From contig JALVQQ010000196.1 of the NCBI GenBank assembly GCA_027025395.1, forward strand, positions 1,459 to 33,649: a DNA stretch of 32,191 nt, in the 5' to 3' direction. This document shows positions 3,656 to 30,721 of the stretch, in pieces. The notes under the pieces are model-generated. The model had not been told where the DNA came from and did no database searches. It worked only from the letters and a program-made list of their open reading frames with translations. Source of the stretch: Deltaproteobacteria bacterium (GTDB lineage: Bacteria > Desulfobacterota > Dissulfuribacteria > Dissulfuribacterales > QOAL01). Within the stretch, counting starts at the first letter, position 1, and every line of letters starts with the position of its first letter. The position numbers were made by a program, and so were the translations under genes.

Positions 3656-6553
3656 ATGAAGTATTTTTATTTTTCCCGCTTTTTGGTCTTGTTGATAGCA
3701 CTTTCCGTTCTGGGGATACCCGGCATGGTAGCGGCCGGCTCTGATATAAAGGGCATGGTCCTGAATGTCCCGGCGCCAATCAAAAAAGATGTAAATGCGG
3801 CTATCGGGAAGAACAATACCGCGCGTCAAAGTTCCATATCAGCCAAAAATCTTGATATGACCGGCGTCGTGGTCAATAAAAACAATGGTAAGACCAATAT
3901 TAACTTGGCGGCCGGTGTTGGCAACAGCGCCGTGCAGGGCTCTGTCGAGGAGGGTGGCAAACTACGCGGCGCCGTGGGCAATATAAATCTGGTCAAGAAG
4001 AATTTGAATCTGGCTGCCGGAAAGGACAGCTCCGCTGTTCAGTCTTCGGTGTCGATAAGGCAGAGTAATGTAACAGGGGTTGTGGCGAATACATCCAAAG
4101 GGCAGAATCAGCTCAATGTGGCAGCTGGCAATGCAGTAGAATCTTCCCAGTCTTCAATAAAAATGGAAGGCGGCGGTGTGACCGGAGGGGTAGTAAATAC
4201 CTCCGTGGGGAAAACTCAGCTCAATGTTGGTGCGGGAAACCGGGCAAATGCACGCCAGGCTACCATTGACATGAAAGGATCACAGGTGCGAGGCGCGGTT
4301 GTCAATACTGCCGTGTCACAGAACGTACAGCTCAATATCGGCGCCGGTAACCGGGTTGAAGCCGACCAGAGTTCGGTCAACACCCGTAACGCCGACGTGG
4401 CCGGGGCCGTGGTCAATACATCGGTAACGCAAAATCAGGTCAACCTTGGGGCTGGCAACCGTGTAAATGCCGGGCAGGCCTCTGTGATTATGAAAGGCGG
4501 CAGCCTCAAGGGTGCGGTAGTCAATACAGCCGTGGGACAGAATGTAGTCAATCTTGGCGCCGGTAACAGGGTGAAGGCTGATCAGGTGACTGTCCGCATG
4601 GAAAACACCAATGTAACTGGCGCCGTAATCAATTCCGGCGGCGGTCAGAACCTTGTAAATGTAGGCGCGGGCAGCAACATAAAGGCTGAACAGATAGCTG
4701 TTTCAGCCAAGGGCAGCTCGGTTAAGGGAGCGGTGGTAAATACGGGCGCCGGGCATACCCTGGTGAATGTTGCAGCCGGCAACCGGGCTTCTGCGTCCCA
4801 GGCATCAACCAGACTTCAGGGCTCAAAAGTGACCGGTGCGGTGGTTAATACCGTAGGCGGCGTGGGGGCAGTAAACCTGGCCGCCGGTAACAGGGTTGAG
4901 GCGAGACAGGCCACGGCTGACATGAGGGGATCAAGTCTGACCGGAGCCGTGGTGAATACAGTGGGCGGAGGCGGCGCAAATCTTGCGGTGGGCAACCGTT
5001 CCGAGGCAAACCAGGCCTCGGTGATTATGAAGGGCTCGAATATAAAGGGCGCGGCAGTGAATACCGTGGCAGGCGCAGGAATCAACCTGGCTGGTGGTAA
5101 CCGCGCCGAGGCCAGTCAGGCGTCCCTGAAGATGGATAGCAGCAGCGTAAAAGGAGCCGTGGTGAATACAGTAGCCGGAGGTGGCGCCAATATTGCCGTT
5201 GGCAACAGGGTCGAGGCAGGGCAGGCCGCTGTCAAGATGAGCGGCTCATCCATAAAGGGGGTTGCAATAAATACGGTTGGCGGCTCTTCCATCAATCTGG
5301 CGGGCGGCAATCGAGCCCAGGCAAGACAGGGTGCGGTTTCCATGAAGAACAGCTCCGTTCAGGGTGCTGCCGTAAACAGCGTGCTGGGGAGTGCGGCCAA
5401 CATTGCTGCGGGCAGTCGGGTGGAAGCCAATCAGGCTTCTCTCAAGATGGAGGGAAGCAGTATCAAGGGGGCAGTGGTTAATACAGTCGCTGGAGGGGCT
5501 GTCAATGTGGCTGCGGGCAACAGGGCAAGAGCCGATCAGGCATCGGTTTCCATGAAGGGGAGCCAGCTTAATGGAGCGGCTGTCAATACGGTTGCCGGAG
5601 GCGCTGCCAACATAGCAGCAGGCAACCGGGTAGAGGCAAGCCAGGCCTCGGTCAAAATGGAATCCAGTCAGGCAAGGGGGGCGGTGGTTAATACCGTTGC
5701 CGGCGGAGCGGCTAACCTGGCTGTTGTTAATCGTTCCGAGGCCAATCAGGCCGCTGTAAAAATGAAGGGCTCCAGCCTTGATGGCGGGGCGGTAAATACC
5801 GTGGCGGGTGTTGCTGTAAACCTTGCCGCCGGTAGCCATTCCGAAGCCAATCAGGCAGCTGTGAAGATGGAAAACAGCCGGATAGGAGGAATGGCGGTGA
5901 ATACGGTTGTCGGCGGAGCCGCCAACCTTGCCGTTGGCAGCCGTTCCGAGGCGAACCAGGCATCGGTCAAGATGAAGGGAAGCCGCGTTGGCGGTGGTGT
6001 GACCAATACGGTGGGAGGTGCGGCAATAAATCTTGCAGGAGGCAGCCGTTCCGAGGCTAATCAGGCATCTTTGAAGATGGAAAACAGCACCGTAGGCGGC
6101 AGCGTGCATAATACAGTTGGCGGTGCGGCGGCAAACCTGGCGTTCGGTAGCCGGACCCAGGCGAATCAGGGCAGCGCGAAGCTTAAAAATGCCTCCGTAG
6201 GCGGCAGTATCAGCAATACGGTTGCCGGAGGGGCTGTCAACCTGGCGGTAGGCAACAGGGCAAGAGCCAACATGGGGTCAACTGTGATTGAAAACGGTTC
6301 GGTTGGCGGCAGTGTCAGCACGAGGGTTGCAGCTGCCGGGGTTGCGGTTAATGCAGCCCTGGGTTCCGGGGCAGAGGCGAATTCCGGAGCGGTAATTATT
6401 AAAAACGGTTCTTCTGTAAGTGGAAGTGTTTCCGTTACATCCGGAAGTGGCATTACAGTAAATGATATTGACAGTCCCGTGAGCTTCGGGCAAAATATAA
6501 ATGTGGCTACGGGTGGCAAGCGGTCCAATAAAAATTCGGTGGTCATGAAATAG
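3656..6553 (+). CDS. Secreted ~25-unit tandem-repeat protein; candidate fibre/amyloid-like structural subunit
   Basis: Signal peptide MKYFYFSRFLVLLIALSVLGIPGMVAAG, then ~24-25 repeats of 35-37 aa, e.g. GAVVNTVAGGAANIAAGNRVEASQASVKMESSQAR; conserved N, N, G and Q positions; RBS AAAGGAG. Confidence 0.85.
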   Translation: MKYFYFSRFLVLLIALSVLGIPGMVAAGSDIKGMVLNVPAPIKKDVNAAIGKNNTARQSSISAKNLDMTGVVVNKNNGKTNINLAAGVGNSAVQGSVEEGGKLRGAVGNINLVKKNLNLAAGKDSSAVQSSVSIRQSNVTGVVANTSKGQNQLNVAAGNAVESSQSSIKMEGGGVTGGVVNTSVGKTQLNVGAGNRANARQATIDMKGSQVRGAVVNTAVSQNVQLNIGAGNRVEADQSSVNTRNADVAGAVVNTSVTQNQVNLGAGNRVNAGQASVIMKGGSLKGAVVNTAVGQNVVNLGAGNRVKADQVTVRMENTNVTGAVINSGGGQNLVNVGAGSNIKAEQIAVSAKGSSVKGAVVNTGAGHTLVNVAAGNRASASQASTRLQGSKVTGAVVNTVGGVGAVNLAAGNRVEARQATADMRGSSLTGAVVNTVGGGGANLAVGNRSEANQASVIMKGSNIKGAAVNTVAGAGINLAGGNRAEASQASLKMDSSSVKGAVVNTVAGGGANIAVGNRVEAGQAAVKMSGSSIKGVAINTVGGSSINLAGGNRAQARQGAVSMKNSSVQGAAVNSVLGSAANIAAGSRVEANQASLKMEGSSIKGAVVNTVAGGAVNVAAGNRARADQASVSMKGSQLNGAAVNTVAGGAANIAAGNRVEASQASVKMESSQARGAVVNTVAGGAANLAVVNRSEANQAAVKMKGSSLDGGAVNTVAGVAVNLAAGSHSEANQAAVKMENSRIGGMAVNTVVGGAANLAVGSRSEANQASVKMKGSRVGGGVTNTVGGAAINLAGGSRSEANQASLKMENSTVGGSVHNTVGGAAANLAFGSRTQANQGSAKLKNASVGGSISNTVAGGAVNLAVGNRARANMGSTVIENGSVGGSVSTRVAAAGVAVNAALGSGAEANSGAVIIKNGSSVSGSVSVTSGSGITVNDIDSPVSFGQNINVATGGKRSNKNSVVMK

Positions 6554-6710: not shown

Positions 6711-7322
6711 ATGAAGAAAGTAATTTCCATTACAACTGCACTGCTGTTTTCAGTGGCTTTGTGCTCAGTGGCCATGGCCGGTTCAACTGTTTCTGGCAAG
6801 GTGACCAACAACGCAAAGGTCAACAAGTCTGCCAATATAGTTTTTGGCAAGGGGAACAAGGCCAGAATGGGTTCGGTAGCCATCAAGAATTCCACAGTCA
6901 AGGGCAAGGTGACCAACAACGCGAAGATCAGCAAGTCAGCCAACATTGTCTTTGGCAAGGGCAATACCGCCAACATGGGTTCCACCACGATTGAAGGTTC
7001 GACAGTCAAGGGCAAGGTGACCAACAACGCGAAGATCAACAAGTCAGCCAACATTGTCTTTGGCAAGGGCAATACCGCCAACATGGGTTCGGTAGCCATC
7101 AAGAATTCCACAGTCAAGGGCAAGGTGACCAACAACGCGAAGATCAGCAAGTCAGCCAACATTGTCTTTGGCAAGGGCAATACTGCCAACATGGGTTCGG
7201 TAGCCATCAAGAATTCCACAGTCAAGGGTCAGGTGACCAACAACGCGAAGATCAGCAAGTCAGCCAACATTGTCTTTGGCAAGGGCAATACCGCAAGCAT
7301 GGGTTCAACAGAAATTGAATAG
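6711..7322 (+). CDS. Secreted five-repeat protein; candidate second fibre subunit
   Basis: Signal peptide MKKVISITTALLFSVALCSVAMAG, then five 36-aa repeats (last 35 aa) of STVKGKVTNNAKISKSANIVFGKGNTANMGSVAIKN; strong GGGGG Shine-Dalgarno-like sequence. Confidence 0.9.
   Translation: MKKVISITTALLFSVALCSVAMAGSTVSGKVTNNAKVNKSANIVFGKGNKARMGSVAIKNSTVKGKVTNNAKISKSANIVFGKGNTANMGSTTIEGSTVKGKVTNNAKINKSANIVFGKGNTANMGSVAIKNSTVKGKVTNNAKISKSANIVFGKGNTANMGSVAIKNSTVKGQVTNNAKISKSANIVFGKGNTASMGSTEIE
6783..7319 (+). repeat. Tandem 108-bp repeat, five units (6783-6890, 6891-6998, 6999-7106, 7107-7214, 7215-7319)
   Basis: Near-identical DNA units read directly, e.g. 'tccacagtcaagggcaaggtgaccaacaacgcgaagatcagcaagtcagccaacattgtctttggcaagggcaataccgccaacatgggttcggtagccatcaagaat'. 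Confidence 0.95.
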
Positions 7323-7465: not shown

Positions 7466-7840
7466 ATGTTGAAATCAAAAAGTACCTTGATCTTGATAGT
7501 TATATTGCCACTCATTCTGTTTCTTTCAGGCGCTGCCGCAGCGGGGGACCTGGATGATGGGATATCGAAATATACGGACGATGGCATTGGCAAGTATGAT
7601 GAGCTTGGTAAGGATCAGCCCAATATTAAGTATGTGATTCAGAGCGCAAAATCTCAGGCAAATGTGAGGCAAAAGTCTATTGAGAGAGGTATTGAGCAGG
7701 GGGACAATTCAACCGGCAGCACCTCAGGCAGCGGGGATAATAATTTGAACAGTGTGGTCATGGGAGCCGGTAGCATAGTCAGGGGGAATATCTATATTAT
7801 TGATCAGAGCAAGGGTGACAAAACCCAGATAGCCAAATAG
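7466..7840 (+). CDS. Small secreted N/Q/G-rich protein; possible minor subunit or nucleator
   Basis: Likely start is ATG 7466 (MLKSKSTLILIVILPLILFLSGAAAAG signal peptide); mature part contains SQANVRQKSIERGIEQGDNS...DNNLNSVVMGAGSIVRGNIYI. Confidence 0.65.
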   Translation: MLKSKSTLILIVILPLILFLSGAAAAGDLDDGISKYTDDGIGKYDELGKDQPNIKYVIQSAKSQANVRQKSIERGIEQGDNSTGSTSGSGDNNLNSVVMGAGSIVRGNIYIIDQSKGDKTQIAK

Positions 7841-8016: not shown

Positions 8017-9393
8017 ATGCATTGCAAGAGAGATTTTTTCAAAAAAATAACCAGTTTTGCCTTGTCTTTTGCAGTAACGGTCATGCTGACGGTTTTTATC
8101 ACGTCGTGCGCCAGTGTAAATCCTCACGACGTGGATGTTGAGCTGGAGGAGACTGCTCCCCATCTGAAAATTACATCATATACCAGCGCTCTGTCAGATC
8201 TCGGCAATATGTCAGTTGTATATGATACAGGTATCGTGAAGATACAGTGTGCTGATATTATAGATGATACCGGGGCTTCCGTAACTACCGGCGCTGAAAT
8301 ACAGCGGAATATAACCGAGATTATGAAGAGTACCCTGAATTCCATCGGCGGCAATGTGGTTTTCATTGAATATGATCCGTCATACATCCAGAACCAGATG
8401 GTGACAGGATACTCTGATTTTAAAAACAAGCTGGTGCCGGATATTGTGATAACAGGCGGCATAACCGAGTTTGACAGGGGCCTTGAAACCCGCGGGCAGG
8501 GCACGGATGCAGGTGTTGAGGCAGACTTCAAGGGGATACCAAGCTGGTTTCCTTCAAACAATGTGGCGATTGACTATGGACAGAGTGCCAGGCAGGGCAA
8601 GGCCAGGATAACCCTTGATTTTAACATTAAAGATTTCCAGACACTTGCAGGTGTGCCTAAGATGACTACCACAAATTCCATAGAGGTACACAAGGCGGTA
8701 AAGAAAAAGGAACTTGCCATTACAATTTTCGGCCCTACTTTCGGCCTTAAAGGGTCTGTCAAAAAAGTACAGGGACGTCATGAGGCGGTTCGCCTTCTGG
8801 TGCAGTTGAGCATGATACAGCTTGTGGGGAAGTATCTTTCACTTCCTTACTGGCGCCTGCTGGGTGATGATGCACTTCCCGATCCGGTTGTAATGGATGC
8901 CATTGCAGATACGTACTATTCCATGAGTCCGGAAGAGCGTATCAGCTCCATCCAGCAATGGTTATACCTGTATGGCTATGATGTTGACATAAACGGCAGG
9001 CTGGATGCCAAAACCGTTGCGGCAATTCAGAAGGTTGATCCAAAATTTACAACCGGGTCCATGGTAAGCGAGGAACTGTTTGCCAAGATTTACTGTAATA
9101 TTCCTTATGATCATGCAGCCATAGGCAGGCGTAAATCGCTTAATATGCTCCTGGCCAGCATGAATGCTGTTTCGGCGCCTACCTACCATGAGGCTCCGGT
9201 GACTTCCCCTGAATCTGCCGCTGCAACTGCGCCGGTAAATGCCCCTGCGGAAACTGCTCCGTCAGCAGTGAAGGAGCAGCCGCGGCAAAAGGCTGCTGCG
9301 GCTCCTGCAAAGACTCCAGCAAGACAAAAGGCCGAGAAAAAGAAGAAAAAAACTGTGGGCTTTGGCCGGAGGCTGACCGAGGATGAGTGGTAA
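8017..9393 (+). CDS. CsgG-family lipoprotein with peptidoglycan-binding-like domain and Ala/Pro/Lys-rich tail
   Basis: Lipobox ...FITSC; CsgG-like KLVPDIVITGGITEFDRG, ARITLDFNIKDFQTLAGVPKM, HEAVRLLVQLSMIQLVGKYLSLPYWRLL; then IQQWLYLYGYDVDINGRLDAKTVAAIQK (PG_binding_1-like). Confidence 0.75.
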   Translation: MHCKRDFFKKITSFALSFAVTVMLTVFITSCASVNPHDVDVELEETAPHLKITSYTSALSDLGNMSVVYDTGIVKIQCADIIDDTGASVTTGAEIQRNITEIMKSTLNSIGGNVVFIEYDPSYIQNQMVTGYSDFKNKLVPDIVITGGITEFDRGLETRGQGTDAGVEADFKGIPSWFPSNNVAIDYGQSARQGKARITLDFNIKDFQTLAGVPKMTTTNSIEVHKAVKKKELAITIFGPTFGLKGSVKKVQGRHEAVRLLVQLSMIQLVGKYLSLPYWRLLGDDALPDPVVMDAIADTYYSMSPEERISSIQQWLYLYGYDVDINGRLDAKTVAAIQKVDPKFTTGSMVSEELFAKIYCNIPYDHAAIGRRKSLNMLLASMNAVSAPTYHEAPVTSPESAAATAPVNAPAETAPSAVKEQPRQKAAAAPAKTPARQKAEKKKKKTVGFGRRLTEDEW

Positions 9394-9778
9394 CGGAATG
9401 ATGCCCCGGAGTGTCATTCTGTTTTGGGGGGCGTTGTTGCTCCCGGTTATGACTGGTGGCATTAATGCCCTGGTAATGGCCGGAAACCGTCACATGGTTG
9501 AATCCAGTGTAAGGCAGCTTGATGCCATTAATAAAAAGGCTGTTAGCACAATCCCCGAGCTTCCCGCAAATGCAGTGGTGGATTTGAAGGCGGATGTACG
9601 TTATTCCGGCGGAGAGCCTCAAATAAGGATTTATGAGAAGAGTGTAAGGGAAACTCGTGAGGAATCCTTTGAATTTGGGCCTCGGCCCTTGAAGGCCGAG
9701 GGGTCTGTTGATGCTGTCAACCACCGGGATGTCAACGGTACAAATGCTACAAACAGGAGGAATGATGCAGTTCACTAA
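9383..9778 (+). CDS. Small secreted protein of unknown function
   Basis: 131 aa, N-terminal hydrophobic SVILFWGALLLPVMTGGINALVMA; overlaps the end of the CsgG-like gene. Confidence 0.55.
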   Translation: MSGNGMMPRSVILFWGALLLPVMTGGINALVMAGNRHMVESSVRQLDAINKKAVSTIPELPANAVVDLKADVRYSGGEPQIRIYEKSVRETREESFEFGPRPLKAEGSVDAVNHRDVNGTNATNRRNDAVH

Positions 9779-10532
9779 TCGTATAAGCCTCGTATGTCTC
9801 GCAATCATATTTGCTTTATGTTCAACGGCATCAGCCGGAAACAAGAAGATCATGAGTGTCAGGGCAGCAAAGGTCCTGGCAGAACGCGCATTGGTCGAGT
9901 CAATTTATGGTTTCAAGATTCGTTCCACTGAAACCGTTGAGAACATGATAGCCGCAAGCTTCAAGGGCAGGACGGAGACCAAGACAAACGCCGAGGTCAA
10001 GGAAATAAAGATAATAGATGTGGCGTACGACGCTTCTAAGGATATTGCCAGGGCTACAGCTGCTGTTACACTCCACAAGTTTACCAATATTGATGGAGTG
10101 GAGATGGATTTCAAGGGGCGCACTTTCAAACGTGTTGCCTTTGCCACATCCACTCCTTCCATGGCCGGGCCTGTGAAGGCCCTTCGCGCCGCCGAACTGG
10201 ATGCTTACAAGCAGCTTGCGAAACGCATAGTAGGGTTTACCCTTCAGAGCCATACCACTGTTGAGAACTATATGCTGAAATCCGATCTGGTGAAGTCAAA
10301 AGTGCTGGCCACCATTTACCTTGCCAGGGTAACGGATTATGGCTGGGATGAGAACGGTGACGCATATGTAAAGATGGTTATTGATACAAAGGAAGTGGAA
10401 GATGTGCTTGGCGAAAAGATAATGGATCCGGACGAGGTAATAGAAGTTGAAGGAAACGGCGCCCAGGTAGATGATTTTTCCCAGGCTCAAACCCAGCAGG
10501 CTTCAGCGGATACGTCTGAGACTGCACATTAA
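9765..10532 (+). CDS. LPP20-like secreted protein with two related halves
   Basis: Start ATG 9765 after AGGAGG. Signal peptide MQFTNRISLVCLAIIFALCSTASA. AAKVLAERALVESIYGFKIRSTETVENM and RAAELDAYKQLAKRIVGFTLQSHTTVENYM are two copies of the LPP20-type motif. Confidence 0.75.
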   Translation: MQFTNRISLVCLAIIFALCSTASAGNKKIMSVRAAKVLAERALVESIYGFKIRSTETVENMIAASFKGRTETKTNAEVKEIKIIDVAYDASKDIARATAAVTLHKFTNIDGVEMDFKGRTFKRVAFATSTPSMAGPVKALRAAELDAYKQLAKRIVGFTLQSHTTVENYMLKSDLVKSKVLATIYLARVTDYGWDENGDAYVKMVIDTKEVEDVLGEKIMDPDEVIEVEGNGAQVDDFSQAQTQQASADTSETAH

Positions 10533-10535
10533 CCA

Positions 10536-10865
10536 TTGAACTGGCGGGGTATTCGGAGGATGGATAGCCACAGGATCTGGAAGGAACGGCTGAAATTTTT
10601 TCTGATTGGAGCGGTATCCGTGTTTCTGCTGTTAGTTGTTACTGGTGCCAGGGATATGAGTGATGCCCCGGCCCTTGATAATGGCAGATTCCAGATAGCG
10701 GCCTGGGCCACCCATTTTGATAATAAAAGCGGAGTAATCGGGGCCTTTATCGTGGATACGGTTTCTGGTGAAACAAAGACTGTTTACACCAGGGAGTATG
10801 GCAGTCCGCCTGTCTCAAAGGTGCTGAAAAACGATTTAAGAAAGAATTTTGCCAATATCAGGTAG
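10536..10865 (+). CDS. Small membrane-anchored/exported hypothetical protein
   Basis: 109 aa, TM/signal RLKFFLIGAVSVFLLLVVTGA, then GRFQIAAWATHFDNKSGVIGAFIVDTVSGETKTVY. The start is ambiguous: TTG 10536 or ATG 10560. Confidence 0.55.
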   Translation: MNWRGIRRMDSHRIWKERLKFFLIGAVSVFLLLVVTGARDMSDAPALDNGRFQIAAWATHFDNKSGVIGAFIVDTVSGETKTVYTREYGSPPVSKVLKNDLRKNFANIR

Positions 10866-11009
10866 CAGGCCTGTGTTGTTGAGTATCATTATGCAGTTCG
10901 CATGTTTTCCCTGAGATGCGAGTCGAGCCATGCCTGTCTGAATAGTCTGAACAACTCCGTAAATGTGACATTGGTGCCCGTGTTCAACCTGAACCGTGTG
11001 GAGGACGTG

Positions 11010-11741
11010 ATGAAATGCAATCCGGGCAGGTCCGGGAGGCAGTTTGCCTATATGAGCATCGGGATTGGCGTTTATCTGTTGTTGTCCGGTTTCATCCAGG
11101 TCAATGTCGGCAATAACTCGGTTCATACTGGAGTGGTCATAATAAATGGCAGGCGGGTTGAATCAACTGCCCCGTCGCCAGTCGTTTCAGACGTCCGAAA
11201 AATCGGTAATTTTTCTTCTGTCGAGATTACAGGCAGTTTTAATGCGGAGATAAGGTGCGGAGCAGGATCTGGCCTGGTCATTTCGGCCGAGAAGAGACTG
11301 CTTCCAAGGATAGTCACCAGGGTGGAGGGCCGCACACTCAGGATATTCACCCGGGGGGACATATCAACAAGCGCACCATTGAGGCTTGAGATAACTACGC
11401 CGGAATTGTTTGAACTGAAGGCGGATGGTGCAAGTGATATCACCATGTCCTGTACCACCAGCCATTTGTCTGTCAGCCTTCAGGAGTCCGTGAATGTTGT
11501 GGCGTCCGGCTCTGTTTCAGAATTAAGTGTGACTCTGAACGGCGCATCTGGGTTTGATGCCGCAGGATTCAAAGCTTCAGATGTCTTTCTGGAGGCCCGG
11601 GATTCGTCCAGTGCAATACTGAATGTTTCAAACAGGCTTGATGCGGCGGCGTACGGTGCAAGTGAGGTGCGCTACTACGGAAGTCCCGGGACAGTTAATG
11701 CCAAGGTGAATGACGCAGCGGATATAGAGGCGGCAGAGTGA
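11010..11741 (+). CDS. DUF2807 (GIN-domain, putative auto-transporter adhesin head)-like secreted protein
   Basis: IGNFSSVEITGSFNAEIRCGAGSGLVISAEKRLLPRIVTRVEGRTLRIFTRG...LFELKADGASDITM...VSELSVTLNGASGFDAAGF. ATG 11010 is preceded by GGAGG; the ORF is open from 10902. Confidence 0.75.
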   Translation: MKCNPGRSGRQFAYMSIGIGVYLLLSGFIQVNVGNNSVHTGVVIINGRRVESTAPSPVVSDVRKIGNFSSVEITGSFNAEIRCGAGSGLVISAEKRLLPRIVTRVEGRTLRIFTRGDISTSAPLRLEITTPELFELKADGASDITMSCTTSHLSVSLQESVNVVASGSVSELSVTLNGASGFDAAGFKASDVFLEARDSSSAILNVSNRLDAAAYGASEVRYYGSPGTVNAKVNDAADIEAAE

Positions 11742-12388
11742 AAGGGAAATCAATAGTTTCATATATTTGTTTTGTTTCGGGTTGTCTTTTCCTGTTGTTG
11801 TTCTTCATCGGGAATGCCAGCGGAACCAGCGAAGCTGAAGCGGGCAAGTATCGTCTGGCCGTTGTTGCCGTCACAAACCGGACCGGGGAATATGTATTCA
11901 GTGACATGCTGATAGTACAGGGCATGGCCAATCTGCTGGCCCAGGATTTTTATGATTCAGGGCTTTTCGTTCCCATTGAGGATAATCCGGAAATTTTGAG
12001 CCGTATCAAGAATCTTTTAACCGTCTATGCCCGGAAGCCACTTGATTTAAAGAACAAGGATTTTGATGAAACCTTCAGAGCCCTTGCCTGCGATGCTGTT
12101 TCATCCGCAACCCTGCTGGAGATGAACAAGTCCAGATTCAGCGGGTTTTCAGCACTTTTTTCCGGCGCGAAAACCACCATCACTATCAAGGTGTGTGTGG
12201 AACTGAAAATGCCCGGCGGCCAGGTTTATGAAGCAATCGGAGAGGGAGAGGGGGTTACAAAGGCGGTTGGTGCATTTTTCCAGGTAAGGAATGATCAGGT
12301 GGCCTTTGACAAGACTACCGTGGGCCGTGCCGTAAAGCAGGCAATTGAAGGGGCTGTAAGGAAGATAGTGGAGCGGTTGCATGTGTAA
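11738..12388 (+). CDS. CsgG-superfamily-like secreted protein
   Basis: GTG start overlapping the upstream stop; signal peptide; KYRLAVVAVTNRTGEYVFSDMLIVQGMANLLAQDFYDSGLFVPIED and GEGEGVTKAVGAFFQVRNDQVAFDKTTVGRAVKQAIEGAVRKIVERL. Confidence 0.6.
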   Translation: MKGKSIVSYICFVSGCLFLLLFFIGNASGTSEAEAGKYRLAVVAVTNRTGEYVFSDMLIVQGMANLLAQDFYDSGLFVPIEDNPEILSRIKNLLTVYARKPLDLKNKDFDETFRALACDAVSSATLLEMNKSRFSGFSALFSGAKTTITIKVCVELKMPGGQVYEAIGEGEGVTKAVGAFFQVRNDQVAFDKTTVGRAVKQAIEGAVRKIVERLHV

Positions 12389-13007
12389 TACAAGGTTTTT
12401 GGTGGTTGTACTTGGCCTCCTGTTGGCTGGATGCCTGTCCGGTTGTGCGCGTACTTATGTGGATAAGGAAGCCGATGCATTTTCCTCTGAACAGCATATT
12501 TCATTCCCGGCGTATAGTGGCCCCAAAACCGTTGTGGCGGTGCTTCCGCTTGGTCTGTCCAGGCGGGCGGCAGATAGATATCCCCAACTTTTGAAGAAAT
12601 CAGTTGGTTTTGGTGTCCATAATGAACTGGTAGAGGCCCTGTACGATACGCACCGGTTTCGTTTTGTTGAGGAAAAACCGGATATTATTAAAGATGTGAT
12701 GGATCGGCAGTGGATGAGCGCCGCAGGGATGGTGAGTCAGTCAAAGGCAATAGAGCTTGGCCGGGTTCTGGGTGCCAGCAAGGTAATTTATGGCGAGGTC
12801 TATGATTTTGCCCAAGGGGGGGAAAGCATAGGCCCAGGTGGCGTATCCCGGGGATTTAACATAAGAATGGCGGTGCAGGTCAGGTTCGTTGACGTGGAGA
12901 CTCTGGAATATGTTCCGGGCAGTGGAACAGGTTATGGCCGTTCCGTAGGTGAGGCATCGAGAAATGCCATTAGGGCCGCTGTGCTCAAGTTGATAAAAAG
13001 GCTTTGA
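12381..13007 (+). CDS. CsgG-like lipoprotein
   Basis: LGLLLAGCLSGC lipobox; KTVVAVLPLGL..., GFGVHNELVEALYDTHRFRFVEE, GRVLGASKVIYGEVYDF, MAVQVRFVDVETLEYVPGSGTGYGRSVGEASRNAIRAAVLKLIKRL. Confidence 0.65.
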   Translation: MCNTRFLVVVLGLLLAGCLSGCARTYVDKEADAFSSEQHISFPAYSGPKTVVAVLPLGLSRRAADRYPQLLKKSVGFGVHNELVEALYDTHRFRFVEEKPDIIKDVMDRQWMSAAGMVSQSKAIELGRVLGASKVIYGEVYDFAQGGESIGPGGVSRGFNIRMAVQVRFVDVETLEYVPGSGTGYGRSVGEASRNAIRAAVLKLIKRL

Positions 13008-14614: not shown

Positions 14615-14694
14615 GCATTTCAGGAGATCAGGTTTTTCCCTCCACTATCTTAATATTCTATATTAAGTGGCGGTTGTTTAAGGGGTGTTTAAAT

Positions 14695-15837
14695 ATGAGA
14701 AAAAAAAGTCTTGTAATATTGCTCTTTTTGTTGTTTGCGATAAATCCTTTGAACCTGCCGCATTCCGCCAAGGCTTCGGATACTGTTACTGCCGAAGGCA
14801 GTGGAGAGACAAGGAGTGATGCGCTGCTTGACGCCATGCGGAATGCCGTGCAACAGGTAATGGGCGGAATGCTGGAGAGCGAGACCCTGGTTGAGAATAT
14901 GGTTCTGATACGAGACAAAATTTTTACCCGAGTAAAGGGGTATGTAAAATCCTGCGATATACTGTCGCAATCCTGCCATGGCGGAATATGCAACGTAAAA
15001 ATAAGGGCCAGTGTGGACAGGATGGATCTTGCCGACGACGTGGCCGCGCTTGTCCATATCCTGCCCCGCATGAATTATCCTACAATGCTTGTTCTCTTTC
15101 AGGAAAACAGCTACAGGAACGATATGCAGAAGGTGCCAGTAGATGTGTCAGCGGCAGAACAGACGGTGGTCAGCAGGCTGTCCGAAAAGGGATTCAATGT
15201 GGTGGAATCAGCCGCTCTTGACATGGAGCGGCGGCGTCAGTCTGCCATCATGCATGCAGCAGGTGATAAACTGGCAGGGGCATTGGAGGCGGCCAGTTAT
15301 CTGGCCCAGGTTATGGTTACGGGCAAGGTGGTTGCCCAGGATAATGGTCCCTCCCCCTATAATAACAGGATCCATTCCTACGGTGCGGTTATTACTGCCA
15401 AGGCATACGAGACAATCACAGGCAAAATGCTGGCCTCGGTTTCCAGCCGGGCCAATGCCGTTGATATAAGTTTTTCAGGCGGGGTGCAGAAGGCCGTTGA
15501 CAAGGCGGCTGCAAGGCTGGCTGATGAGCTTTCCGCCAGAATAACCCGCACATGGCTGGATTACTGCTATAATGTGCATGATATAACAATGACAGTGGAA
15601 AATCTCTCCTTTTCCCAGTTCAGGCCTCTCAGGGAGGCAATGTTGAACAGAATTCGTGGAGTGGCACATGTAAACCAGAGGAGTTTTCTGCGTGGCAGGG
15701 CTGTTCTTGTTGTTGGATGGCAAAACTGCAATACCATGAAGCTTGCCCAGAAACTTGATGGCATGCATTTCAAAGGGGGGCGTGTCAAGGTGATGGAGAC
15801 GCAGGGGAATGCGATTCGCATTAGAATCGTGCATTAG
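14695..15837 (+). CDS. FlgT-N/LPP20-like secreted protein
   Basis: Start ATG 14695 (MRKKSLVILLFLLFAINPLNLPHSAKA). TAEGSGETRSDALLDAMRNAVQQVMGGMLESETLVENMVLIRDKIFTRVKGYVKSCDI resembles the FlgT N-terminal domain. Confidence 0.65.
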   Translation: MRKKSLVILLFLLFAINPLNLPHSAKASDTVTAEGSGETRSDALLDAMRNAVQQVMGGMLESETLVENMVLIRDKIFTRVKGYVKSCDILSQSCHGGICNVKIRASVDRMDLADDVAALVHILPRMNYPTMLVLFQENSYRNDMQKVPVDVSAAEQTVVSRLSEKGFNVVESAALDMERRRQSAIMHAAGDKLAGALEAASYLAQVMVTGKVVAQDNGPSPYNNRIHSYGAVITAKAYETITGKMLASVSSRANAVDISFSGGVQKAVDKAAARLADELSARITRTWLDYCYNVHDITMTVENLSFSQFRPLREAMLNRIRGVAHVNQRSFLRGRAVLVVGWQNCNTMKLAQKLDGMHFKGGRVKVMETQGNAIRIRIVH

Positions 15838-15878
15838 CTTGCGGGGTGGCTAATAGTCATGGAAGAGAGCGGAAGGTT

Positions 15879-17378
15879 ATGAAAAGAGGCCTGCTTTTGC
15901 TGCTGCCTCTCCTTTTATGCCTTGTGGCTCTGCCGTCCCATGCTTCAAGACAGACGGTAAAAGGGGCTGTGGTAAAGATTTATACGGTTAGCAATCCTCA
16001 CAGCTACATGCACCCCTGGCAACTCATGGGGCAGCAAAATGTAAATGGTTCCGGGTGCATTATCAGCAAAAACCGCATTCTGACCAATGCCCATATTGTA
16101 AGTGACGCCATGTTTATTCAGGTCAGGCGGGCCGGGAGGGCGGAAAAGGTGCCTGCCAGGATAGTCGCGCTGGATCACGATTGTGACATTGCCGTACTGA
16201 CCGTGGATGATGACAGTTTCTTTCTCGGGGTAAAACCCGTTCCGCTTGGAGACCTGCCGGAGATCCAGGACCGTGTGGCTGTGTACGGTTTCCCTGAGGG
16301 CGGAGACAAGATATCCATCACCGAGGGAGTGATTTCGCGCATTGAGCATGTAAACTATGCCCACAGCGGGGCGTATCTTCTGTCGTGCCAGCTGGACGCC
16401 CCGATAAATGCCGGCAATTCAGGCGGGCCGGTAGTCAAGGACGGTAAAATTGTCGGCGTTGCATTTCAGGCAATGAGCGGCGGGGATTATGAAAATATCG
16501 GGTATATGGTTCCGGTTCCTGTCATAAGACATTTTTTCAGAGATCTGGCGGATGGCCATGTTGATGGCGTGCCTGATCTGGGCGTTTCAATGGAAAAGCT
16601 TGAAAATCCGGCCTGGCGCAAATTTTACGGCCTGAAAAAGAGAGAAACCGGGGGACTGGTAATAAAGATTTACCCCGGCTCCCCCTGCCTGGGCAGGTTG
16701 CGCCGTGGAGATGTCATCTTGTCGGTGGACGGGTGGCCTGTGGCCAATGATGGCACTATCGAGTTCAGAAAGGGACAGCGGACATATTTCGGTTACATAG
16801 TGCAGCAGAAAATCGTCGGCGATTCAGTCACCCTTGAGGTCCTGAGGCAGGGCGAGAGAAAAAAAGTGGATGTGGTGCTGGACAGCCCCCTGGGGATTGA
16901 CCGGCTGGTGCCAAATCACCAGTATGATAAAAAACCCCGCTATATTATCTTCGGAGGGTTAGTGTTTGAGCCCCTGGTGCTGAACTATCTGCAGGAATTT
17001 TCGACTGGTCCGGACTGGTACAACTATGCCCCGGCGGACCTTCTTGATCTTTACATAAATGGGGAACCTGACAGGAACAGACGGGAAGTGGTGGTTCTTA
17101 CTGAAGTGCTTCCGGATTCAGTCAATATTGGTTACCACGAAATAGGCTGTAATATAATAAAATCTGTTAACGGAGTCATGCTGCGCTCTTTCAGCGATCT
17201 TGTCAGGGTATTGGACTCGGCAAGAGATCCTTTCATTGTATTTGAAGATTACAAGGGATTTTTGATCGTTCTGGACCGAAAGAATGCCATGCGTGCTACC
17301 CCTGCCATACTTAGCAAATATCAGATAGGCGCGGACCGGTTTTTAGGCAGCGGCGCAGGTAAGGCGCAACTCCACTGA
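15879..17378 (+). CDS. Secreted trypsin-like (HtrA/DegP-type) serine protease with PDZ region(s)
   Basis: Signal peptide MKRGLLLLLPLLLCLVALPSHA; triad context ILTNAHIVSDA / DHDCDIAVLTV / INAGNSGGPVV; PDZ-like GGLVIKIYPGSPCLGRLRRGDVILSVDGWPVAN. Confidence 0.85.
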   Translation: MKRGLLLLLPLLLCLVALPSHASRQTVKGAVVKIYTVSNPHSYMHPWQLMGQQNVNGSGCIISKNRILTNAHIVSDAMFIQVRRAGRAEKVPARIVALDHDCDIAVLTVDDDSFFLGVKPVPLGDLPEIQDRVAVYGFPEGGDKISITEGVISRIEHVNYAHSGAYLLSCQLDAPINAGNSGGPVVKDGKIVGVAFQAMSGGDYENIGYMVPVPVIRHFFRDLADGHVDGVPDLGVSMEKLENPAWRKFYGLKKRETGGLVIKIYPGSPCLGRLRRGDVILSVDGWPVANDGTIEFRKGQRTYFGYIVQQKIVGDSVTLEVLRQGERKKVDVVLDSPLGIDRLVPNHQYDKKPRYIIFGGLVFEPLVLNYLQEFSTGPDWYNYAPADLLDLYINGEPDRNRREVVVLTEVLPDSVNIGYHEIGCNIIKSVNGVMLRSFSDLVRVLDSARDPFIVFEDYKGFLIVLDRKNAMRATPAILSKYQIGADRFLGSGAGKAQLH

Positions 17379-29014: not shown

Positions 29015-30721
29015 TCAGTTGGAAGCAGAGACCTGCGCCAAAAAAGAGGTAATATATTTTCCGTCCGGCCTGGTTTTGCCGCCTGCCTGCTGAAGTTCTT
29101 TTCTTACCGGTTCTGCCGCAAGCTCCAGTATGTGCCTGGCTGCCCCGGATGATACCTCTGATATTGAGGCAAACTCCTCTGCCGCCCTGTCCAGGACCGC
29201 TGCTGTATCCTTGCCCAAAAATATTTCTTGCACATTTTCAAGCACGGCCGGGGCGACCGGCACTATCACCGCCGAGCCTTCAGCCATGAAGTTCACCAAT
29301 GCCGTGGCAAGTCCGTGCTGCCATGTAAATTCCGAGGGCGTCAGGAAGTTTGTATCCTCCCATGCAATAGCGCTTTTCCAGTTTCGCCAGTGGGGGACAA
29401 GCCGCTCCATTATTTTCTCCCAGGTCTCTATTTCAGCAAGCATTTCCATTGCATCCTTGACCTGTTCGATCCCGGAAAAGGGGATGCCTTCCTGCCGGTT
29501 TTCATCCCATGCAAGAGGAACATGCCTTTCAAGCATAAGGAACCGGTCGCTGTATATGGAGGGCAGAAAGGCGCGTGGGATTCTCGATGCGATTTTTCTT
29601 GCCCGCGACCTGATCCTGGAAAGCGGCCACATGGCTGCCCGAACGATCTCTTCAAGAGGAGATGTCCTGAGAATGTCATCCGGCCGCGCGGCAATATGGT
29701 GGTCGATTATAACTTCAAGCCCCAGGTTGATCATGGCCGCGGTTTTGAGCAAGGCCCTTTTCAGGGAATCGGGGTCGTCAAGGTCTGTACGGTCCGCCAT
29801 CAGTATCTTGTTGGCAACCCCTGTCCACTCCCGTATTATCCTTCCAGCATGAATTGAATCGGCCAGTTCCTGCATGGCCGTGGTTATGGCCGGAAAGTCC
29901 GACATGTACAGGGTCGGGACAAAAGCCGGCATATCTTCGCTGTCTGTTTCCCATGCAGGCAATCTGGCCGCCTGGCGGATCCTGTCAGGGGGCAGGGGAG
30001 CATAGATGTCAAGGGCGCTGAAGTAGTCAGGCAGGCCGAAATCGGCAAGGCGTCCGCACCTGAGCCGCCATGCCCGCTCGGTGCATTCCGTGGCTGTCTC
30101 CGTGAGGATGGTCTCCATTGTGTTGCGGTAAAATCCCGGATCAAGCTCTGCAAGTTTCATTACAACCCTGGTCCAGAGAGGTTCCAGCTTGGCGCTGAAT
30201 TCGATGTAATAGCTGTTGTCAATGGTGAACGGGTACAGGATGTCCTTGGCCTCTTCCAATTCCATGTCTCCGGGCCGTTTTTGCACCTTTGCAAAGTTGC
30301 GCATGATGGCAGGCACAAGGAATGGATCTTTTTTCATTATCCATCCGAACCACCGGTCGGCCGCCTCTTCACCCGCCTCGAACAGCAGTATGAGCCATGC
30401 GGTTATGCGGTCCGGCCTCAGGGCGTCCTTTTCCCACCAGTCAAGATCAAAAATAAACTGAAGCTGGTCACAGGAACAGGCCGCAATGGTCTGGAGGCTG
30501 TCTTCCGGGCCTGTAGCCTTTATTGTCCAGAAGAGTTCTTCAACCGGTAAGGAGCGCACCAGCTCCGGAAAGTTTCTGGACAGTAGCATAAGCTCCTGGC
30601 GTTTCTCCCAGGGGGTCATGAGCGTAAGCATTGCCTGACGGCTGAGCGAAAGTTCATTGAATTGCCGTTCCGCTTCGACCGCAGGTAGAGAAAGAATTTT
30701 TTCAGGCAATAAATCTGTCAA
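29015..30721 (-). CDS. Large cytosolic protein, DUF6178-like (family from memory)
   Basis: 568 aa uninterrupted ORF, KILSLPAVEAERQFNELSLSRQAMLTLMTPWEKRQELMLLSRNFPELVRSLPVEELFWTIKATGPEDSLQTIAACSCDQLQFIFDLDWWEKDAL. Confidence 0.7.
   Translation of the reverse strand: MTDLLPEKILSLPAVEAERQFNELSLSRQAMLTLMTPWEKRQELMLLSRNFPELVRSLPVEELFWTIKATGPEDSLQTIAACSCDQLQFIFDLDWWEKDALRPDRITAWLILLFEAGEEAADRWFGWIMKKDPFLVPAIMRNFAKVQKRPGDMELEEAKDILYPFTIDNSYYIEFSAKLEPLWTRVVMKLAELDPGFYRNTMETILTETATECTERAWRLRCGRLADFGLPDYFSALDIYAPLPPDRIRQAARLPAWETDSEDMPAFVPTLYMSDFPAITTAMQELADSIHAGRIIREWTGVANKILMADRTDLDDPDSLKRALLKTAAMINLGLEVIIDHHIAARPDDILRTSPLEEIVRAAMWPLSRIRSRARKIASRIPRAFLPSIYSDRFLMLERHVPLAWDENRQEGIPFSGIEQVKDAMEMLAEIETWEKIMERLVPHWRNWKSAIAWEDTNFLTPSEFTWQHGLATALVNFMAEGSAVIVPVAPAVLENVQEIFLGKDTAAVLDRAAEEFASISEVSSGAARHILELAAEPVRKELQQAGGKTRPDGKYITSFLAQVSASN

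Follow-up and report, generated by a model that had tools for sequence, protein, structure and literature searches.

How an amyloid-exporting pore and the fibres attached to it are held in the cell envelope is little understood, and one gene in the 32,191-nucleotide stretch of DNA that we analysed (hereafter, the window) raises the question of whether such a pore could carry its own wall anchor. The gene (8017-9393; like its operon partners described below, on the forward strand) encodes P0001, a 458-residue CsgG-like lipoprotein with a peptidoglycan-binding-like (PG-binding-like) domain, a linker and a C-terminal motif. The reading we favour, with a probability of roughly 0.6, is that P0001 is a peptidoglycan-tethered CsgG-type outer-membrane pore of a curli/Fap-like fibre operon. 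If this is true, wall-binding domains that belong to the pore itself would be a direct, testable answer to the question of envelope anchoring.

The frame at 8017-9393 is open along its 458 residues and has six relatives with 49-57% identity over the full length; since the sequence is conserved in related loci, we regard it as a real gene. A lipoprotein signal sequence (8017-8106) ends in the lipobox ITS|C31, with alanine at position +2; in a seven-member alignment of P0001 and its relatives, C31 is invariant. Next come a CsgG-type core (residues 31-290; 8107-8886), a PG_binding_1-like domain (residues 300-365; 8914-9111), a low-complexity linker rich in A, P, Q and K (residues 380-447; 9154-9357) and, at the very end, the conserved motif GRRLTEDEW (residues 450-458; 9364-9390). 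Mean identity within the family falls from 63% in the core to 37% in the PG-binding-like domain and 25% in the linker. As the first-pass annotation of this DNA had pointed out, E. coli CsgG (277 aa) has no such extension, and P0001 is longer by ~180 C-terminal residues, comprising the domain, the linker and the motif.

The CsgG assignment of the core was evaluated with sequence profiles. The Pfam CsgG model matched P0001 below its curated cut-off (E 0.034; 13.9 bits vs 20.8), and matched all seven members of the first P0001 family alignment. When a 14-member family alignment was compared with a CsgG alignment made of the E. coli protein and 24 sequences from the same phylum as the window, the profile-profile probability was 97.1% (E 5.9e-11, 230 columns), with the homology spanning residues 8-280. 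In the same comparison, unrelated operon proteins scored 0.2-1.9%, column-shuffled versions of the P0001 family no more than 0.2%, and a CsgG-like protein encoded at 12381-13007, serving as positive control, 99.1%. Family alignments were required for this result, as hhalign run with the single sequences of P0001 and E. coli CsgG was uninformative (3.7%). These profiles support placing the core in the CsgG family (PF03783), with the single-sequence Pfam score below cut-off. The alignment runs along the whole CsgG domain and includes P0001 stretches with an alternating pattern that correspond to the two transmembrane hairpins of the E. coli protein, the second being nearly of E. coli length. Structural support for a CsgG-type core is weak: the AlphaFold2 (AF2) model of the mature part, built from four sequences, was poor in the core (mean pLDDT 43), leaving the pore fold without structural confirmation, and a Foldseek search with this model returned CsgG chains of 4uv2 at E 0.6, from which we took no proof.

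Within the core, the segment that aligns with the constriction loop of E. coli CsgG (DDTGASVTTGAEIQR, 8263-8307; family pattern DxTGxSxxTGxEIxR) is ~6 residues shorter than its E. coli counterpart, DETGQFKPYPASNFSTAVPQ. No aromatic residue of P0001 aligns with Y51, N55 or F56, and none of these three residues is matched; these form a constriction that characterises the E. coli protein and is not a family-wide criterion for CsgG proteins. In seven close members the loop region is rich in Ser, Thr and Gly and entirely free of aromatics, and in two distant ones (L032 and L033) a phenylalanine lies nearby. In E. coli this loop, which has a hydrophobic character, constricts the channel to ~1.2 nm (PMC4389571). 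Being shorter and devoid of aromatics, the P0001 loop suggests that the pore, if it is one, is gated differently from that of E. coli. A natural CsgG relative of this kind would interest nanopore engineers and bear on how substrates are gated when CsgE is absent.

We then turned to the genes that surround P0001. Upstream lie three genes for secreted proteins, with gaps of 143-176 bases: a 965-aa repeat protein, the putative large fibre subunit (3656-6553); a 203-aa repeat protein (6711-7322); and a small protein (7466-7840) that ends in NSVVMGAGsxVxGxIxIIDxSKGxKT, is kept beside the pore gene and is a candidate minor subunit or nucleator. From 8017 to 13007 the genes overlap or are at most 36 bases apart. 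They encode P0001; p5, a 131-aa secreted protein whose gene overlaps that of P0001 (9383-9778); an LPP20-family protein (9762-10532); a 101-aa protein with a single N-terminal hydrophobic helix (10560-10865); a DUF2807 protein (putative adhesin head GIN; 10902-11741); and two further CsgG/LpoB-like proteins, a small one with a sub-threshold Pfam match to CsgG (11738-12388) and the 208-aa lipoprotein that served as positive control (12381-13007). An HtrA-type protease with PDZ domains follows at 15846-17378, and its orthologue lies downstream of several related operons.

Searches of 395 sampled genomes of the phylum yielded nine full-length P0001 members, the window's own included, and a tenth match that covers the PG-binding region only. 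The distribution is rare and patchy, the family being absent from the two other genomes of the genus and from 16 of the same family. Beyond the phylum, a plasmid homologue in Azospirillum lipoferum matches the family profile over both the core and the PG-binding domain (E 1.8e-24 when it was the only sequence searched) and carries an additional DUF4384; nearby upstream of it lies a gene for a small repeat-like secreted protein, and directly downstream one for an OmpA-family protein. The fusion thus recurs in eight further full-length members and in Azospirillum, which answers the first-pass suggestion to look for it in other genomes. The gene order, namely repeat protein, small secreted protein, P0001, p5, LPP20, 101-aa protein and DUF2807, often with HtrA, is kept whole or in part in L010-L012 and L027-L031, where some contigs end early. 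Secreted small or repeat proteins are encoded directly upstream in nearly every member whose contig extends there (L011, L012, L028, L029 and L031-L036), as well as near the Azospirillum homologue, and the distant members L032-L036, which have lost most of the other partners, retain them immediately upstream.

These neighbourhoods bear on whether P0001 forms a pore at all. The core could instead be that of a CsgG/LpoB-type periplasmic lipoprotein acting as a wall scaffold or an activator of peptidoglycan synthesis, with the repeat proteins leaving the cell by another route. Such a protein would be in keeping with one of the two additional CsgG-like proteins of the window matching LpoB (in Pfam and NCBIfam), with the compatibility of peptidoglycan binding and LpoB functions, and with the uncertainty of the core model. 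However, the 12381-13007 protein seems too short to hold the second hairpin and is probably not a pore, whereas P0001 keeps extended stretches that match both hairpins; moreover, the linkage of P0001 to small secreted proteins or secreted repeat proteins holds in different phyla. We therefore judge the pore-less alternative clearly unlikely, and retain a tethered pore as the preferred reading.

The secreted repeat proteins were characterized as candidate substrates. The 203-aa protein consists of five near-identical 36-aa repeats. Its longer relative, the 965-aa protein, has a 35/36-aa periodicity and is made up almost entirely of repeats rich in G, N, A and V, with 0.2% Tyr, 0.5% Phe and no Trp. 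AF2, given three sequences, modelled the 203-aa protein as a beta-solenoid (pLDDT 88, a confidence reached by two of the five models). A Foldseek search of 350,542 PDB chains with this model ranked the FapC amyloid first (E 5e-3, probability 0.16, TM 0.16) and the CsgA fibril eighth, all with low TM-scores and probabilities of 0.14-0.16. By sequence, no match of the window's repeat proteins to FapC or CsgA was seen, neither the 965-aa nor the 203-aa protein matched the curlin family in Pfam, and their repeats measure 35-36 aa vs 23 +/- 5 for curlin (PMC10192328). Where these proteins matched designed pentapeptide-type solenoids in the PDB, we attributed the match to composition, and we took Pfam matches of the 203-aa protein to Hirudin and RuvB_N as low-complexity artefacts. 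Like FapC of Pseudomonas, its best, albeit weak, structural match, the 203-aa protein is secreted and has imperfect repeats predicted to form a solenoid. Taken together, the 965-aa and 203-aa proteins are likely fibre subunits and may form amyloid.

In adjoining secreted repeat proteins, as in being a lipoprotein, P0001 resembles E. coli CsgG; unlike the curli system of E. coli, its operon contains nothing recognisable as CsgE, CsgF or curlin repeats. None of the operon proteins matched CsgE in Pfam, and p5 was rejected as a CsgE, scoring 0.6% against the E. coli protein. Two candidates for CsgF were rejected: the 101-aa protein, for which a weak Pfam match (E 0.049, in four of eight members) fell to just 3% in the profile-profile comparison, and the LPP20 protein, whose 55% match covers the first 39 columns only, in the signal-peptide region, and was taken as an artefact. 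As these three hallmarks were looked for and not found, we keep the operon apart from curli systems proper, even though its mode of action is probably similar. Fap differs in another way, in that it uses a trimeric FapF barrel (PMC12822426); neither FapF nor FapD was named among the Pfam matches of the window genes scanned. Desulfobacterota are among the bacteria in which curli-type operons have been described (PMC12822426).

The C-terminal half of the question is whether the extension reaches the wall. The Pfam PG_binding_1 model matched P0001 at E 0.0011 (19.6 bits vs a curated cut-off of 23) and three of the seven members of the first family alignment. Compared at the profile level, region 290-385 of the family matched a PG_binding_1 alignment with a probability of 94.8% (E 5.5e-8, 53 columns), with controls at no more than 0.5% and 20 shuffles at no more than 0.9%. 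AF2 gave the domain block pLDDT values of 78-89, and the eight PDB sequences that best matched its profile resemble PG-binding or PG-cleaving proteins, at weak E-values of 0.1-0.8. These data support a fit to the three-helix PG_binding_1 profile (PF01471). Both domains proposed for 8017-9393 in the first-pass annotation, a CsgG-like core and a PG_binding_1-like motif at residues ~300-365, were thus borne out: the domain search finds each of them, below cut-off in Pfam and well above chance, with clean controls, between profiles.

The sub-cut-off Pfam score and the matches in just three of seven members might still be taken to mean that the stretch is a chance helix-loop-helix resemblance within the C-terminal extension. 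This we consider very improbable, given the gap between 94.8% and the shuffles, the fact that the PDB near-matches resemble PG-binding proteins throughout, and the independent PG_binding_1 matches in L033 and the Azospirillum homologue. A more serious alternative, one that we regard as doubtful, is that the pore is of CsgG type and its domain no longer binds peptidoglycan, serving as a protein-protein module that docks LPP20 or the substrate, or plugs the vestibule as CsgE does. Not every PG_binding_1 domain binds peptidoglycan; conservation is lower in the domain than in the core, one distant member (L034) has a version that is difficult to identify, and with no recognisable CsgE a cap function could be built in. 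Yet unrelated wall-binding domains recur at the C-termini of canonical CsgGs, and an OmpA-family gene lies directly downstream in the Azospirillum operon, both of which point to wall contact. Furthermore, since CsgG has its C-terminal side turned towards the periplasm (PMC12822426), the P0001 extension would sit where the wall is. In line with the tethered pore that we prefer, the domain may bind peptidoglycan.

The canonical CsgGs in question come from the same phylum sample: one carries PG_binding_1 (8.9e-17; L047, 986-2038) and two carry SH3_3 (about 1e-11; L046 and L048). Like P0001, all three have a CsgG domain followed by a C-terminal domain of wall-binding type; unlike P0001, their CsgG domain is clear in the Pfam model (E about 1e-46) and they belong to a different lineage. 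Wall-binding extensions on CsgGs thus probably arose more than once. The idea of a peptidoglycan-anchored exporter as an architectural novelty accordingly holds in part: it is the natural reading of the domains, from which binding and export would follow, while the architecture is not unique to P0001. In the open-access papers searched, we found no description of a fusion of CsgG with a PG-binding domain. Outside curli, HfaB of the Caulobacter holdfast anchor translocon is a CsgG-like outer-membrane protein thought to secrete and anchor surface proteins, for which we found no PG-binding domain such as that of P0001 described (PMC6707917); MafA of Neisseria has also been likened to CsgG (PMC7738311).

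Regarding the tail, the K/A/P-rich stretch described earlier is present where it was placed, but it is weakly conserved (25%), and conservation is confined to the last ~9 residues, GRxLx(D/E)(D/E/S)(D/E)W, found in nine members. Members with an LPP20 partner all carry this motif, and no others do (9/9 vs 0/5). Every genome with the tail has an LPP20 orthologue: in six it was found at E below 1e-120, and in L010-L012 it lies within the operon. The five genomes with a tail-less homologue have no LPP20, or weak partial matches only. By simple counting this co-occurrence would arise by chance once in 2002, a figure to be read as an indication and not a test because the members are related. A flexible linker that ends in a conserved, docking-like motif describes this stretch better than a lysine tail with its own function. 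In L033 (9709-11253), TPR-like repeats replace the linker and the motif after the PG-binding domain.

From homology and gene order we infer pore formation, stoichiometry, substrate and export, wall binding and LPP20 docking, and propose the following mechanism. P0001 would be lipidated at C31 and oligomerise like CsgG, for whose family a nonameric 36-strand pore is characteristic, each subunit contributing two beta-hairpins to a common barrel. Through this pore the secreted repeat proteins, whose genes lie just upstream, would leave unfolded, and outside the cell they may then stack as beta-solenoid fibres. The PG-binding-like domains, at most one per subunit, would hang in the periplasm and hold the pore to peptidoglycan, such that the fibre base would be mechanically anchored, and the GRxLx(D/E)(D/E/S)(D/E)W motif of the flexible linker may dock onto or recruit the LPP20 partner. 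More tentatively, and short of an even chance, these features may define a separate type VIII-like lineage, in which a wall-tethered CsgG-type pore lacking the E. coli aromatic constriction exports Fap-like solenoid subunits with neither CsgE nor CsgF, recruiting LPP20 via a conserved C-terminal peptide.

Several further features of these loci were observed. The 11738-13007 pair forms a trio with a 387-aa protein (14674-15837, weak FlgT_N match), and L028 and L029 show the same linkage; with LPP20 added, the trio is reminiscent of the flagellar outer-membrane disc proteins FlgO/FlgP/FlgT. Elsewhere in the window, 29015-30721 encodes a protein of DUF6178 (E 2.5e-114), a family of unknown function. 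Genes with FHA domains lie near two distant members (L032, 4311-6251 and 11503-14163; L105, 8878-12897), accompanied by a sigma-54 activator in the case of L032 and by PP2C phosphatases in that of Azospirillum, a hint that expression or secretion may be phospho-regulated.
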